This document shows, in pieces, positions 154 to 44,516 of a stretch of DNA of 64,000 nt. Both the position numbers and the translations under genes were made by a program. The number at the start of each line of letters is the position of its first letter. Position 1 is the first letter of the stretch. Source of the DNA: Planctomycetota bacterium (GTDB lineage Bacteria > Planctomycetota > UBA8742 > UBA2392). The stretch spans positions 1-64,000 of the forward strand of contig JAIOJA010000013.1 in NCBI GenBank assembly GCA_019912315.1. Direction: 5' to 3'. The notes below the pieces were generated by a model. It saw only the letters and a program-made list of their open reading frames with translations. It searched no databases and had not been told where the DNA came from.

Positions 154-609
154 TCAGGGCAATGCTTCCAGAACATTCTGCGCGTGACCGTCCACGCGGA
201 CGTTTCTCCAGATTTTTGCGACCTTGCCCTTCGGGTCGATCAGATAGGTGCTGCGGGTGATTCCCTTTACCGTGCGTCCATACATCTTCTTGTCGCCGTA
301 GCAGCCGTACGCCGTGGTGACTGTCTTGTCTTCGTCACTAAGCAGGGGCAGCTTCAGCTTGTGCTTGTCGGTGAACTTCTTCTGGGCCGCGGGGCTGTCG
401 GGGCTGATCCCCAGCACAATCGCGCCTTGCTTCTCGAATTGCTTCACCAGACCGGTGAAGGCGATGGCTTCCTTGGTTCAGCCGCTGGTGTTGGCTTTCG
501 GGTAGGCGAACAGCACAACCCATTTGCCCTTGTAGTCGCCCAGCTTGTGGGTCCTGTTGTCCTGGTCCGGCAGGTTGAATGCCGGGGCCTTGTCACCTTC
601 GTTCAGCAT
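154..609 (-). CDS. bcp: Selenocysteine-containing peroxiredoxin, Bcp/PrxQ type
   Basis: Thiol (here selenol) peroxidase that reduces hydroperoxides in the cytoplasm. Conceptual length is 151 residues, usual for Bcp/PrxQ, if the in-frame TGA at 480-478 is read as Sec. The start is an ATG with AAGGAG six bases upstream. The N-terminus has the family opening (EGDKAPAFNLPDQDN), then WVVLFAYPKANTSG-U44-TKEA. This lines up with the Bcp signature YPKDNTPGCTxEA, so Sec sits exactly at the peroxidatic Cys. After the UGA the protein continues in frame through GISPDS, DKHKLKLPLLSDE, YGCYGDKKMYG and TYLIDPKGKV to a terminal TGA. A GGUCU-loop hairpin lies just after the internal UGA (separate entry). Conventional gene calling would give only the C-terminal 97 residues. 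Sec-type Prx and Prx-like proteins are known in bacteria; Sec use here is inferred from the codon position and hairpin. Confidence 0.9.
442..460 (-). promoter_or_regulatory. Bacterial SECIS hairpin for the peroxiredoxin UGA
   Basis: Reading the minus strand, 17 nt after the UGA there is a perfect 7-bp stem CUUCACC / GGUGAAG closed by the five-base loop GGUCU. The E. coli fdhF SECIS apical loop also carries GGUCU, which is recognised by SelB. The loop starts 24 nt after the UGA, inside the roughly 16-37 nt window accepted for bacterial SECIS elements. The hairpin is within the coding sequence, as bacterial SECIS elements must be. No folding program was run. Confidence 0.85.
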
Positions 610-655
610 GAGTGGCTCCTTGTCCGTTGCGGCGCAGCACTATAGCTTGCGCGTG

Positions 656-38421: not shown

Positions 38422-41400
38422 TCAGTCTCGTGACACACGAACTCGTGTCACCAAAGCCAGCAGAGCCAAAGCACCCAGGAGCAGGCCCCACAAGCCATTG
38501 TTGGAAGTGCTAGCGACGCAACCACCGCCGCCGCCTCCACCGCCGCCGCCGCCGCCGCTGGCGTTGATGGTGAGGGTCAGTGTGACTGTGTCCGTGGCAA
38601 AGGCGCTGTCCGTGACGGTTACGTCAAAGATGAAGACGCCGTTCGCCGTGGGTGTGCCGCTGAGCACGCCGGCTGCGCTGAGCGTCATGCCGGCGGGCAG
38701 CGAGCCCATCGTGATGGCGAACGAGTACGGCGCCGTGCCGCCGGTTACGCCGATGTTGACCGGCCCATAGGACGAGCCTTCGGTGCCGTCGGCCAGCGTC
38801 GTTGTCGTGATCGACGGTGAACCCAGCGCGGGCGGATCAATCGTCAGGTCGTACAGCTGATCATCCGTTACGTTGAGTGAATCGGTGACCGTCACGGTGA
38901 AGTTATAGGCGCCCGCTGCAGTAGGCGTGCCGGTGAGATCGCCCGTTGCGCTCAGGTTCATGCCGGATGGCAGAGCGCCTGCGGTCACAGCGTAGGTGAG
39001 ACCGCCCGTGCCGCCCGTGGCGACGATGGGCACGGTGGTATAGGCCAGGCCTTGCTCCCCGTTCGGCAGCGGGGAGGCCGTCGTGATCAACGGCGCCGCG
39101 GCAACGTCAATCGAGACATAGATGGTGATGCTGTTCAAACCGCCGTCATCCACGTCCACGTCAAACGTGTGCGTGCCGACGTCATTGACTGTCAGTGCGC
39201 CGGCCGGGGCGACATTCAGAACACCGCCGGCAAGCGTGAAGGTGAAGCCGACACCGCCTGCGGGGTTGCCAACACCCGCCACCGGGGTAGCCGTGAGGGT
39301 CTGGCCGGTGTTGGGGTCGGTCACAGTCGCGAGGTCAATGTTGCTGGTGCCGTCCATGGTTTCGGTGTACTCGGCGAGGTACGGCAGACCGATGGAGCCA
39401 TCGCCGCTGAGCGCGTTGGCGATGACGTGCGAGGGCGGCAGATCGTCGATCGTGATAGTCACGTCAATCGTTTCCAGCGTCAGGTTCACGGCGTCACGGA
39501 AGGTCACCTGCCACAGATACGGGCCGGGGACGTTGGTGGCGTCAGCGGTGCCTGTCCAGGCGAGGTTGATCGGGTGGCCGGCCGCGGGAACCGGCGGCCC
39601 GGAGATGCCCGTCGGCGCTGAGGCCGGCGGAGTGATGGCGGTAACGGTGATGGCATCGAGTTCCGGGTCGGTCAGTTCAAGCGTGGCGTTAGTCAGCGTC
39701 GCGCCCGGAGCGACGGTCAGGGTAAACGGTCCGTTGGTACCGCCACTGAAAGTCGAGGCGACACCGAGGTTCGCAACAGCCGGGCTGTTCGCGATGGTGC
39801 CGACGCCGACCACGTCAAAGCTGAACGGGCTGACACCGGAGTTATTGTCGATGGTGAGCGTGAGGCTGAACGGCCCGCCAAGTGCGACGGGCTGAATGAA
39901 CACATCGAACGTGGTGGAGCCCGTGGGGGCGATGCTGGTGGTTACCGGCTGCACGGACACAATCGTGGCCGGGTCCAGCCCGCTGTTGAGGGTGATGGCA
40001 ACGGCGTCAGGCGAGCCGGTGAGGTTGAGGGTCTGTGAGCCTGGGTTCTGGATGGTGAATGTGACGGACAGACCGGTGATGGTGTCAACACCGCCGACGT
40101 TGCGGCTGCCGTTGTTCGGAATGTTGATGACGCCTTCCAGCACTTCGATCTGGGGGAAGTCGCCCTCGTCGGCGCCGATGTCGGCCGTCGATCCCAGCGG
40201 GCGCGAATCACCATCGATGTCGTCGCCAAGAGTGGACGGGTTGCCGGCGGGGTTCAGGCAAGGCGAACCGCTTGTCAGGTGCAGGTCGATGGTGCCGGTC
40301 GTGCTTACGAGCATCGGGTCGGCGTTCGAGCCGTTGGCGTCGTAGCCGGCGGTTTGCCATAGCGCGAATGTTGCCAGTGTTGCCTGGTTGGACTGCACCT
40401 GGGCGAACCAGAAGTTGTAGTCGGCGGTCGTGGGCGAACTCGCCGTTGACGACAGGTAAATCGCGGGGACGGCCGGGTCGGTGCAGGTGACAATGTTGTT
40501 GTTGATGTCGTGTAGGGGGTAGGTGCTGCTGCTGGAGTAAGCGTAGATGCCGCCCGTGGTGGTGAAGGTGGAGGTATGAAGCACGGTGTTGTGTCGAATC
40601 ACGCCGCTGCCGCTGGCCGCATTGCGAACCGTGATGGAGCCGTTCGAGTTGACCAGCATTACGCTGGTCGCGGGCACCGAGTTGGTAAAGCAGTTCCACA
40701 CGAAGTTGTTTTCGATAAGTCCGTTGGTGAAGTAGCCGCTGTTCTGACCCATGTGTCCGATACCCGGGCCGTCCGGGATGTCGTGTACCCGGCAGTTGCG
40801 AATCGTGATATCCGTGGTGTTCAGTCCGTAACTGTTGTTGCCTTGGGCAATGATACCGAAGTTGGGCCCGCCGGTGACTTCAAGGCCGTCCACGGTCACG
40901 TAGGACTCATTGATTACAAGCCCGCCGCGTCCGGTCAGGGCCGAAGTCGGCGACTGACCAAACAGAATCGCGCCGGTTGGACTGCCGACAACGACCGGGG
41001 TCTGGCCGGTAGCGACGTTCAGCGTGATCGTGTTGATCGCGGAGACGCCGGCGATCGGCGTAACGTTCGGTACGGGCTGGACGTTGTCGAGCCCGAGGCT
41101 GTAGGACGGCGTGGAGTTATACGTCCCGCTGTCCGTGATGGTCAGGGTCACCGGGCCGGATACACCGGCCAGCTCAAGAATGTCGAACGCGTCGCCGATG
41201 TCGGCGAAGTCGCCCGAAGTCTGGTTGATGGTGTAGGGCCCGTTGAGCGGCGGGGGGATCACGGTGACGGCACCGCCGACAACCGGGAATGTGCCGCTGG
41301 CGGGTCCGGGCGTGCTGGAAACATCGCCCGCCAGTTCCACTTCAAACTGGATCGTGCCCAGGACACTTGCCGCAATGGATACATCGCTGGTAACAAAGAA

Positions 41401-44385
41401 CGTCTCGGTGTTGCCGGGGGTCAGTGCGCTGAAGCCGCCGGTGAACGTAACGTAGTCACCGGTCATGGACGCAACAACGCCGCCGACCTGGGTATCACCG
41501 AGACTGAAAAGACCATTGTTGTCTGTGTCCTCATACAGTGTGAGATTCGAGAGCTCCGTGCTGCTGACTGTGCCGACCTGGTGCAGCGTCACGCTGTTCG
41601 GTGCCTGGGCCGCCCCGAACGGTTGAAGGTCAAAGCTGCCGACCCAGCTTCCCGTTGAGCCGAGAAGCGCCGATGGGTCCGCACCGGCGTTGGGGGACAC
41701 AAGCAGCGACGGTGGGATGATGTCCACCCGGATGTCGTCGAGCAGCAGGTCGTCCGCGGTACTGTTTTCGGCAATCTGGAAGCGGATCACGGTCTGGTTC
41801 GTGAACGTGAGCGCGGCCGACGACATGAGCGCCGACAGGTCAATGATTTCCTGGTTCCAGACGCCTGTGTTCAGGATGACGGGGATCTGGTGAACGGTGA
41901 GGTGCCAGTTGGTGCCGCCGTCGGTGCTGATGAACACACCGATGAAGTGCTCGACAATGACGGTGGTGGTGTCCGGATCGAGCCCTTCGTCGTTCCACCA
42001 GAATTCAAGTTGAACGGTGTCGGCCGGCGCGACGGCGGAGAAGTCAAACAGCAGATCCATGCCGACGGCGCCGATGTTCGTGTTGCCTTCCATGTCCAGC
42101 AGCCCGTTGCCCGTTACCGGGTTGCTGCCAAGGGTCGTGCCTGATACCCGGTACTGCCCGGTGCCGGCCGCAACGCCGCTGCCGGGGGTGCCGCCGACGG
42201 TAACTACCGTCGGGTAGAACCCGGGTGTCGTGGCGAAAGTCGCGTTGAAGTAGGGCGCGGGTGTTTCAAACCCGAGTATGTACGGGAAGGTCGAGGCTGG
42301 TCCTTGAATGGTCCAGTCATTTCCAAGTAGCGGGTAGGTGGTCTGGTCCGTGCCGCCGCTGAAGCTCAGGTTCGAGGCGCTGTCGACCCGGAACTGCAGA
42401 GTTTCGCCGGGTGTGGCGCCGGAGTTCAGGTCGGCGGCCAGCAGCAGACGTGAAGCGCTTGCGGTGTTCAAAACAAGCGGCAGGGGTGCGGCACTGAAAC
42501 TGACGGTGCCGGAGGACAGCAACCCGGTGCCGAGGAGTGTGTCACCCGCGTCAACCATGCCGTCGTTGTTGACGTCAAGGTAAAGGCGCATGGTGTTGAT
42601 GTCTGTGTCGGCAACGGTGCCGGATTTGGTGAAAGTTACGGAATTCAGGCTGTGATTGCTCACGAAGGTGAAGGCGTTCATGTCCATCACCACGAGGTCC
42701 GTGCCGGGTGACGCCAGCAGGCCGGGCGACGTGGAACTCGACAGCAGCGCGCCGTCGGCCAGGGGCAGCTCGGTGTTCATGCCAGCCTGGATTTCGCCCT
42801 GGCTGCGGACCTTGTTCCATACGCGGAATTCATCGAGGTCGCCCTTGAAGCTGGAACTGGACGTGGGCGTGTAACTGCCGACGGCCAGTGCGCCGGAAAT
42901 GGCGGCCGTGCGGGCGTTGTTGCTGTCAAGCGCGCCGTCCATGTACAGGCGCAGCTCCTGAGCCACGCTGTCATAGACAAGCGCGACATGGTGCCACTGG
43001 TTCGCGGCGAGCGTGTTGTTGAAGTAGATGGTTGTGGAGGGCGTACCGCCTGTCGTCGAAACGTACAAGCCGGAAGTAGTGGAGTAGTACAGGTACATGC
43101 CGCCGTTGAAGCGGAACACGTAGCCGCTGGAGCTGCCGGTTACGCGCAGCCAGGTTTCGATGGCCCATGAGTCGTTCGTTGTCAGGGCGGCGTTCCAGCC
43201 GGTATCCAGCCCGTAGGGTGCGGTGGTGACGGTGTTGAAGTTCAGTGCCGCGGCGCCAAGCCTGCCCGGCGTCACCCAGCTTGGCGGGTTGGTGGGGAAA
43301 GTCACCGGGTTGTTGCCGGCGCCCGGAATGGCGTCGTTGGCCGTGGTTGTGCCCGTGCCTTCGTTCATCTTGTAGTAGATGTGGTATGGAAGATTCGGGT
43401 CCACGACAAAGAACGATCCCGCAGAAACCGGGTAGCTGGTGAAGTCCGTGCCACCACTCCAGGTCGCCGAGTTCACGTCGAACTGCATGCTCGTGCCAGG
43501 CGCGAGCGAACCCACAACGTCAACGGCCAGCAACAGTCGAACCGGCGAGGCCGTTGTAATCGCCTGCAGGGGTGAGCCTGAGAAAGTAACTTGCCCAAGC
43601 GTTAGCGCCCCCGTACCAAGGGAAGTATCGGTACCCGTATCCACGACGCCGTTGTTGTTGTCGTCGCGCCAGAGTTCCAGACCGGTGATTTCTGTGTCCG
43701 CGATCGTGCCGTTCTGTTCAAACACCACGGAGTTCAGGTCGAAGTTGCTGTTGTAGGTGGCGACATTGAAGTCCACGGCCACGAAGTCGCTCGCCGGCGA
43801 GCTAAGTGCGCCGCCGCTTGTTGTGTTTGGCGACAGCGACGTGCCGTTGCCAGACGGAAGGTACGTGATTCCGCCATTGAAAACGCGGAGAGCGTTCGTT
43901 CCGCCGAATGAGCTGCAAAGACCGACGCCAGCTGTGCAGTCGATGGTCATTGTGGCGTCGCTGTAGATCTCGGTGCCGGTTCCGTTCGTGTAGGTGGCTG
44001 AGAACTCGATGTACATGCCGTGAGTTCCGGCCGGCAGGATAAGCGGCGCCGTGAAATTCACGGTAGTCGGAAGACCGGTCCCGGCGGACGTTACGATGTT
44101 TGCCTGGTGTGTGGTCCAGGCGCCGGGAGTTGTTTCGTTGCCGACGAAGGAACCGTTCAAGATGTAGTAGACGGTGACCGTAGTAGAACCGGTCGCCGAG
44201 CAATTGACGTCCACACCCGAAATGTTGACGGGCGATGCCAGCGTCAGGTCAAACATGTTGCCACCGCCGCAGCCATTGCCGCCAGCATAGGTGGTGTTCA
44301 GGGTTGTTTGCGCGGTTGCCGTTCCGGCAAACGCAGCCAGAAGCACTCCGGCAAAGAGCGTCATCAGCGATTTATGAATGGACAT
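38422..44385 (-). CDS. Giant secreted multidomain protein with Gly-Cys/TM/Arg C-terminal anchor
   Basis: 1987 residues from MSIHKSLMTLFAGVLLAAFAGTATAQ, a signal peptide; GAGGAACAC precedes the ATG. Segments in order (approximate residues): beta-rich modules with repeated 'SLNSVTFTKSGTVADTDI' signatures (~190-330, 545-640, 860-1045); a LamG/concanavalin domain (333-535, YKMNEGTGTTT, AANQWHHVALVYD, DLDEFRVWNKV); a right-handed beta-helix (1048-1375, ITIRNCRVHDIPDG, NNIVTCTD); an ASPM/choice-of-anchor-like domain (1408-1535); and putative Ig (He_PIG) repeats (~1775-1938, LPSGMNLSATGDLTGTPTAAG). The tail has ~12 Gly, then Cys, a TM helix (LWGLLLGALALLALV) and RVRVSRD. A surface adhesin, polysaccharide-binding or matrix protein is likely. 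A consensus sigma-54 promoter precedes it. Confidence 0.88.
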   Translation of the reverse strand: MSIHKSLMTLFAGVLLAAFAGTATAQTTLNTTYAGGNGCGGGNMFDLTLASPVNISGVDVNCSATGSTTVTVYYILNGSFVGNETTPGAWTTHQANIVTSAGTGLPTTVNFTAPLILPAGTHGMYIEFSATYTNGTGTEIYSDATMTIDCTAGVGLCSSFGGTNALRVFNGGITYLPSGNGTSLSPNTTSGGALSSPASDFVAVDFNVATYNSNFDLNSVVFEQNGTIADTEITGLELWRDDNNNGVVDTGTDTSLGTGALTLGQVTFSGSPLQAITTASPVRLLLAVDVVGSLAPGTSMQFDVNSATWSGGTDFTSYPVSAGSFFVVDPNLPYHIYYKMNEGTGTTTANDAIPGAGNNPVTFPTNPPSWVTPGRLGAAALNFNTVTTAPYGLDTGWNAALTTNDSWAIETWLRVTGSSSGYVFRFNGGMYLYYSTTSGLYVSTTGGTPSTTIYFNNTLAANQWHHVALVYDSVAQELRLYMDGALDSNNARTAAISGALAVGSYTPTSSSSFKGDLDEFRVWNKVRSQGEIQAGMNTELPLADGALLSSSTSPGLLASPGTDLVVMDMNAFTFVSNHSLNSVTFTKSGTVADTDINTMRLYLDVNNDGMVDAGDTLLGTGLLSSGTVSFSAAPLPLVLNTASASRLLLAADLNSGATPGETLQFRVDSASNLSFSGGTDQTTYPLLGNDWTIQGPASTFPYILGFETPAPYFNATFATTPGFYPTVVTVGGTPGSGVAAGTGQYRVSGTTLGSNPVTGNGLLDMEGNTNIGAVGMDLLFDFSAVAPADTVQLEFWWNDEGLDPDTTTVIVEHFIGVFISTDGGTNWHLTVHQIPVILNTGVWNQEIIDLSALMSSAALTFTNQTVIRFQIAENSTADDLLLDDIRVDIIPPSLLVSPNAGADPSALLGSTGSWVGSFDLQPFGAAQAPNSVTLHQVGTVSSTELSNLTLYEDTDNNGLFSLGDTQVGGVVASMTGDYVTFTGGFSALTPGNTETFFVTSDVSIAASVLGTIQFEVELAGDVSSTPGPASGTFPVVGGAVTVIPPPLNGPYTINQTSGDFADIGDAFDILELAGVSGPVTLTITDSGTYNSTPSYSLGLDNVQPVPNVTPIAGVSAINTITLNVATGQTPVVVGSPTGAILFGQSPTSALTGRGGLVINESYVTVDGLEVTGGPNFGIIAQGNNSYGLNTTDITIRNCRVHDIPDGPGIGHMGQNSGYFTNGLIENNFVWNCFTNSVPATSVMLVNSNGSITVRNAASGSGVIRHNTVLHTSTFTTTGGIYAYSSSSTYPLHDINNNIVTCTDPAVPAIYLSSTASSPTTADYNFWFAQVQSNQATLATFALWQTAGYDANGSNADPMLVSTTGTIDLHLTSGSPCLNPAGNPSTLGDDIDGDSRPLGSTADIGADEGDFPQIEVLEGVINIPNNGSRNVGGVDTITGLSVTFTIQNPGSQTLNLTGSPDAVAITLNSGLDPATIVSVQPVTTSIAPTGSTTFDVFIQPVALGGPFSLTLTIDNNSGVSPFSFDVVGVGTIANSPAVANLGVASTFSGGTNGPFTLTVAPGATLTNATLELTDPELDAITVTAITPPASAPTGISGPPVPAAGHPINLAWTGTADATNVPGPYLWQVTFRDAVNLTLETIDVTITIDDLPPSHVIANALSGDGSIGLPYLAEYTETMDGTSNIDLATVTDPNTGQTLTATPVAGVGNPAGGVGFTFTLAGGVLNVAPAGALTVNDVGTHTFDVDVDDGGLNSITIYVSIDVAAAPLITTASPLPNGEQGLAYTTVPIVATGGTGGLTYAVTAGALPSGMNLSATGDLTGTPTAAGAYNFTVTVTDSLNVTDDQLYDLTIDPPALGSPSITTTTLADGTEGSSYGPVNIGVTGGTAPYSFAITMGSLPAGMTLSAAGVLSGTPTANGVFIFDVTVTDSAFATDTVTLTLTINASGGGGGGGGGGGGCVASTSNNGLWGLLLGALALLALVTRVRVSRD

Positions 44386-44516
44386 GTGTTCCTCAAAGTG
44401 GTGTGCCCCCGATGCCCCACTGCACCGGCTCAAAAGTCACAACGCTTCGTGCCTGACGTAATCTTCCCGCGCGCACAGGCGGTCGAAACGGAGCGAGGGT
44501 TGTTGTGACCAACACC

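Follow-up and report, generated by a model that had tools for sequence, protein, structure and literature searches.

A planctomycete PrxQ/Bcp-type peroxiredoxin gene whose in-frame UGA likely encodes selenocysteine

We analyzed the first 64,000 nucleotides of contig JAIOJA010000013.1 (assembly GCA_019912315.1, a Planctomycetota bacterium). This whole stretch is called the window below, and coordinates refer to it unless another contig is given. Its minus strand carries a peroxiredoxin gene with the following features:

154..609, minus strand: coding sequence of a PrxQ/Bcp-type peroxiredoxin, 151 residues when the internal UGA is read through (Pfam, AlphaFold2, Foldseek)
616..621, minus strand: ribosome-binding site AAGGAG, 6 nt 5' of the ATG
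478..480, minus strand: in-frame UGA at the peroxidatic-cysteine codon (residue 44), likely selenocysteine (Sec); UGA or Cys in 30 of 30 orthologues read
442..460, minus strand: predicted bacterial SECIS hairpin (5' arm 460-454, loop GGUCU 453-449, 3' arm 448-442)
301..303, minus strand: Cys103 (Sec+59), the sole other cysteine of the protein and a possible partner of Sec44
154..447, minus strand: C-terminal open reading frame of 97 residues with a GTG start, which is what is left if the UGA is a stop, and the form held in the protein database (P0002)

The UGA at 480-478 is the sole internal stop of the minus-strand frame 609-154, and it coincides with the peroxidatic cysteine of the PxxxTxxC motif. 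An earlier note, made from the sequence alone, had described this frame as that of a Bcp/PrxQ protein broken only at its catalytic cysteine, in the context ANTSG-U-TKEA, and had claimed a ribosome-binding site. The frame is as described, and the ribosome-binding site is the AAGGAG at 621-616. The span given there, 442-609, does hold the N-terminal part and the hairpin, but the whole gene occupies 154-609. On the plus strand, a divergent neighbor (545-2677) encodes a protein resembling signal peptidase I (83.8 bits to Peptidase_S26) that contains a large additional stretch. The TTG listed as its start overlaps the start of the peroxiredoxin gene, and the true start is probably downstream of this TTG. 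Elsewhere in the window, positions 38422-44433 of the minus strand encode a protein of 2003 residues with Laminin_G_3 and putative Ig domains.

The read-through protein scores 139.8 bits against the Pfam AhpC-TSA model, whose gathering score is 26. Its top NCBIfam matches are PrxQ models (PrxQ / thioredoxin-dependent thiol peroxidase), though all are under their cut-offs; with Cys written for Sec, NF006960 gives 139 bits where 140 are needed, and NF053650 gives 167 where 260 are needed. Because these equivalog cut-offs are missed, the subfamily name rests on the best matches, the fold and the neighbors in the PDB, where the top sequence matches are Bcp/PrxQ proteins. An AlphaFold2 model, computed from 20 aligned rows with Cys in place of the UGA, has a pLDDT of 95.4. 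Its best Foldseek match is Bcp 9a4d_B (TMq 0.95), and the solved structures closest to it in fold are those of Bcp and PrxQ. Among 30 orthologous loci, the active-site proline and threonine of PxxxTxxC(U) are present in all 30, and the active-site arginine at +75 is found in 27 when counted by plain offset; in the 20-row alignment, this residue (R119) is invariant.

These 30 loci were returned by a search of 60 whole genomes, of which 55 had some match. The peroxidatic codon is UGA in 14 of them and Cys in 16, and no other codon occurs. Within the window organism's own family the division is 11 UGA to three Cys, and one of the Cys-type members (G005) belongs to the same genus as the window organism. 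In two further genomes of the family (G008 and G015), the 60-genome search found no orthologue. A phylum-wide search covered 392 genomes, at least 171 of which have a match at 1e-30. Among the matches listed in that search, 20 rows contain one TGA, and in all 20 it falls at the peroxidatic codon (14 previously read and six newly read). Taken together, 11 of the 14 family assemblies read have the UGA form, as do nine other genomes of the phylum.

One might suppose that the UGA is a true stop, resulting either from a sequencing error or from decay of the gene into two fragments. Such a view could appeal to the hairpin, which is not significant by itself (see below), and to the fact that gene callers and databases keep a C-terminal fragment. 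However, the repeated occurrence of the same UGA in independent assemblies, across the family and the phylum, refutes it in the main. In addition, the mean dN/dS is 0.175 before the UGA and 0.124 after it (15 pairs, six genus members), which indicates purifying selection on both halves. The genus also conserves a ribosome-binding site only at the full-length start, with AAGGAG preceding that start in five of five Sec-type members. A true stop is thus extremely improbable.

The fragment kept by the databases had been foreseen in the earlier note, which expected gene callers to truncate the protein to its C-terminal 97 residues, and a 97-residue form is indeed what is stored. A database search with these residues returned 221 proteins. 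Among the best 47 (at least 65% identity, the window's own protein included), 38 have 92-108 residues and start after the place of the UGA; these 38 fragments were read as protein records. The remaining nine have 150-160 residues, and each has Cys at the site.

The earlier note further predicted that the organism would encode SelA, SelB, SelD and tRNA-Sec, and all four were detected in the genome. The matches to selA (553 bits), selB (332 bits) and selD (396.5 bits) are each above the curated cut-off, and selD itself has a UGA, in the context GAG-U-GCK. The tRNA-Sec has the anticodon UCA, scores 72.9 bits, is 93 nt long according to ARAGORN and lies on the same contig as selA, about 0.7 kb after it. 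Two lower matches to the tRNA-Sec model that are above its cut-off are tRNA-Leu and tRNA-Ser. A second SelB match, containing a TAG (L002), is not a recoded SelB; read by eye, it is a frame for elongation factor Tu with TAG as its final codon. The two outcomes that had been named as refuting the proposal, a genome without sel genes and relatives with neither Cys nor UGA at the site, were both absent.

Across the genomes of the 30 loci, all 14 with UGA carry selA, as do nine of the 16 with Cys (Fisher p 0.007). Thirteen of the 14 UGA genomes also have selB, and the remaining one (G003) has none at 1e-60. A similar association extends to thioredoxin-fold genes more generally: among the matches listed in the 60-genome search, as tallied by hand, at least 24 of 43 genomes with selA have a UGA match, as compared to none of the 12 without selA (p 0.0005).

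These observations bear on the possibility that the UGA is read through, but that a suppressor or near-cognate tRNA inserts cysteine or some other residue. Cys is the sole other residue at the site, so that insertion of Cys would yield a working enzyme. Against this, a regular tRNA-Sec(UCA) and selA, selB and selD are all present, and the UGA form was observed only in genomes that carry selA. Moreover, UGA also serves as the terminal stop of the peroxiredoxin gene (156-154) and of four of the other family members examined, which argues against a general reading of UGA as sense. We consider the insertion of a residue other than Sec to be very unlikely. With a UGA at the catalytic cysteine and a full set of Sec genes in the genome, the enzyme is instead likely made with selenocysteine. 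Our main reading, to which we assign a probability of about 0.94, is that the gene at 609-154 encodes a PrxQ/Bcp peroxiredoxin whose UGA at 480-478 is likely translated as Sec, directed by the predicted SECIS at 460-442.

The hairpin had been put forward as a perfect stem of 7 bp with a GGUCU loop, starting 17 nt after the UGA. This structure is present at 460-442 (CUUCACC/GGUGAAG), but its fold is not significant alone, whether judged by energy, by codon re-draws or by covariation. In isolation it has an energy of -9.5 kcal/mol (z -0.15), while in an 80-nt context the minimum free energy (MFE) structure is a different fold (z +0.49). Perfect stems of at least 7 bp whose first two loop positions include a G follow 29 of the 2023 TGAs in the window (1.4%), and 12% of 20,000 synonymous codon re-draws of the same peptide also yield such a stem. 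Pairing of the stem across 11 Sec-type genes is 92.2% of 77 cells, and the shuffle control is nearly as high. There are no compensatory pair changes among these 11 genes, two of which (L023 and L026) retain only 4 bp, while a third (L029) has one mismatch. Rfam has no family on this stretch, and a sub-threshold match to the UCA1 lncRNA on the other strand was dismissed as chance.

What makes the hairpin credible is the evolutionary record in its codons, and not its energy. In the 11 UGA genes, codons +7 to +12 after the UGA are identical in 250 of 250 pairs with the same residue, whereas the corresponding figures are 68% upstream and 62% downstream. The stem-loop window ranks first of 127 six-codon windows for codon identity in the 11 genes, although, when only the five genus members are compared, other windows equal it at 100%. 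The glycine at +9 is encoded by GGU in 10 of 10 cases, as compared to nine of 140 elsewhere. Where at least nine of 11 residues are equal, a single codon is used in four of four columns inside the stem-loop and in 15 of 89 outside (p 0.001). All of these counts ignore the relatedness of the genes. At the loop codons, the sequences in the three Cys-type members of the family are ACG GGA, TCC GGC CUU and AGC GGU; two of the three depart synonymously, and one does not. The synonymous changes include those of the same-genus Cys-type member G005, which has ACG GGA for ACC GGU. We therefore infer that the hairpin at 460-442 is a SECIS element.

It is conceivable that the signal for Sec insertion is not this 7-bp GGUCU hairpin, and that the stretch provides it by folding in another or a longer way. 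The dissimilar MFE structure in the 80-nt context points in that direction, as do the lack of compensatory changes and the broken pair in L029. Other hairpins, moreover, fold in the UGA orthologues outside the family and in the genome's other UGA genes, so the GGUC loop may not be a genome-wide signal. However, the codons that are frozen are exactly those of the stem-loop, GGU at the +9 glycine above all, and the loop letters are lost in the Cys-type G005. A signal of another shape is accordingly improbable, and we retain the 7-bp hairpin as the predicted SECIS.

The established bacterial pathway suggests how the host would produce and use the enzyme. Using selenophosphate from SelD, SelA would charge tRNA-Sec(UCA) with Sec, and SelB, bound to the GGUC loop, would deliver the charged tRNA to the ribosome. 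In the finished protein, the Sec44 selenol would be held in place by the invariant residues P37, T41 and R119, and it would be oxidized to a selenenic acid as it reduces hydrogen peroxide or an alkyl hydroperoxide. Resolving cysteines of PrxQ proteins are located at +5 and +36 relative to the peroxidatic residue, but are not universal in PrxQ. None of the 14 family members has Cys at either position, the latter of which is, by alignment, the place of C84 in the Xanthomonas campestris protein. Since both resolving cysteines are missing from the family, the selenenic acid would most likely be reduced by an outside thiol, for example that of the WCGPC thioredoxin (L190) encoded in the genome, and the protein would then be a 1-Sec enzyme.

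Within the genus, Cys103 would be a possible alternative partner of Sec44. The enzyme of the genus and of its sister genus might then not be of the 1-Sec type, and might instead form an intramolecular selenenylsulfide between the two residues. Cys103 is the only Cys of the protein, and nine of the 14 family members, including all six of the genus, have Cys at +59. However, three Sec-type members of the family (L027, L028 and L029) lack it, and +59 matches neither of the known PrxQ resolving sites. We regard such a bond as possible, yet rather unlikely, and favor reduction by an outside thiol.

The distribution of Sec and Cys also suggests how the site has evolved. On a protein tree of the 30 loci, six changes between Sec and Cys are needed (bootstrap range 5-7), and the well-supported branches force at least three. 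An exchange of Sec for Cys inside the genus is consequently likely, with the forks within the genus left open. G005 has Cys both in its PrxQ (L021) and in a SCO1-like protein (L202, discussed below) where its genus sisters have UGA, and it keeps selA and selB despite both Cys-type genes. It is possible that this organism is a case in which Sec is being lost gene by gene.

We examined the position of the host with an rpoB tree of 25 rows. Five of the 30 genomes are not represented in it, and the branch of its Chloroflexota row is aberrant (length 10). The named genomes in this tree came from a contig scan with Cys-containing patterns, and therefore represent Cys-type genes only. Seven of the eight genomes of the window organism's phylum and four named planctomycetes group together (SH-aLRT 97). 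Two genomes of this phylum nest among the named Planctomycetia and Phycisphaerae, while the window's class is outside both. One same-phylum genome (G028) lies outside the otherwise supported planctomycete set, and its placement is unresolved. Given this tree, the organism is likely a planctomycete of a class other than Planctomycetia and Phycisphaerae.

The closest solved proteins are Cys-type. The window protein has the same fold as E. coli Bcp (9a4d; TMq 0.95, 41% identity) and X. campestris PrxQ (5iiz; TMq 0.90, 39% identity), and shares with them PxxxTxxC/U and the arginine. It differs from them in having a predicted Sec for the peroxidatic Cys, and in lacking Cys at +5 and +36. A peroxidatic Sec is also a feature of PrxU of Eubacterium acidaminophilum, which Sohling reportedly described in 2001 as a thioredoxin-dependent peroxiredoxin with Sec at that site. 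However, the window protein scores 53 bits on the PrxU model (NCBIfam NF040737), whose cut-off is 270, and so belongs to another peroxiredoxin subfamily.

As far as the available parts of PMC9312934 and PMC13188914 extend, the Sec-containing peroxiredoxin of COG1225 (Bcp), with the motif TxxU, is a listed family. The present gene is therefore an added member of that family, and not a new type; it has in common with it the domain, the TxxU motif, here with a predicted peroxidatic Sec, and a predicted downstream hairpin like a bacterial SECIS. The earlier note had regarded Sec-type peroxiredoxins as uncommon, which overstates their rarity: in the available part of PMC1088965, 43 such genes are counted in the Sargasso Sea set, where only one other known selenoprotein family is more abundant. 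By comparison with the listed family, the window family is without the cysteine at +5, its close relatives have likely exchanged Sec for Cys, and its host belongs to a planctomycete class for which our literature search, within the texts available, gave no such family. More broadly, in the accessible portions of the literature on planctomycete selenoproteins and on PrxQ with selenocysteine, we did not recognize this gene family in planctomycetes. A precedent at the level of the phylum exists, in that the planctomycetes P1 and P2 from Porphyra have complete Sec machinery (PMC4807772, in the part available), but these are different lineages from the window organism, and the main text of PMC4807772 contains 0 occurrences of the word peroxiredoxin. 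The added member is a predicted Sec-type Bcp peroxiredoxin without the usual resolving cysteine.

We also read other UGA genes of the same genome, searching three families (PF00578, PF00085 and selD). Nine were read, namely the peroxiredoxin and eight further candidates, including SelD. Six of the latter have a thioredoxin fold and a UGA at the active site (L049, L053, L059, L060, L191 and L194), with the motifs FTFV-U-PTE (AhpC-type), WUPFC, WUGYC, WUGPC, WUGPC in a thioredoxin domain, and YTUPPC. With these six extra genes, the genome appears to be rich in selenoproteins. In the window itself, a scan for UGA-interrupted frames of high GC3 found 165, and among the 40 listed only the peroxiredoxin looked gene-like by eye.

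The most unusual of the genome's UGA genes is a SCO1/SenC-like gene outside the window (L195/L197, C9:32934-33575; Pfam, 74 bits). In its protein, the CxxxC copper site reads CPHT-U-P, with a UGA in place of its second Cys. Close matches to it occur in 13 of the 60 genomes, nine with CxxxU and four with CxxxC. The available part of PMC13188914 contains no SCO1/SenC selenoprotein, and none was recognized in the texts accessible to our literature search.

A broader idea, which we offer tentatively and hold to be doubtful, is that, in this planctomycete family, selenium has taken over much of the redox chemistry otherwise done by thiols. The components would be a one-selenol PrxQ without a resolving Cys, an AhpC-type peroxiredoxin, several thioredoxin-fold UxxC proteins and a SCO1/SenC-like copper protein with CxxxU for CxxxC, with recent Sec-to-Cys exchanges in sister species freeing the letters of the SECIS. 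For the peroxiredoxin itself, the analysis points to a planctomycete lineage with a selenium-dependent peroxidase and, likely, a sizeable further set of selenoproteins, whose genes are stored as truncated fragments. The Cys-type sister species within the genus makes both the exchange of Sec for Cys and the release of the constraint on the SECIS directly testable.
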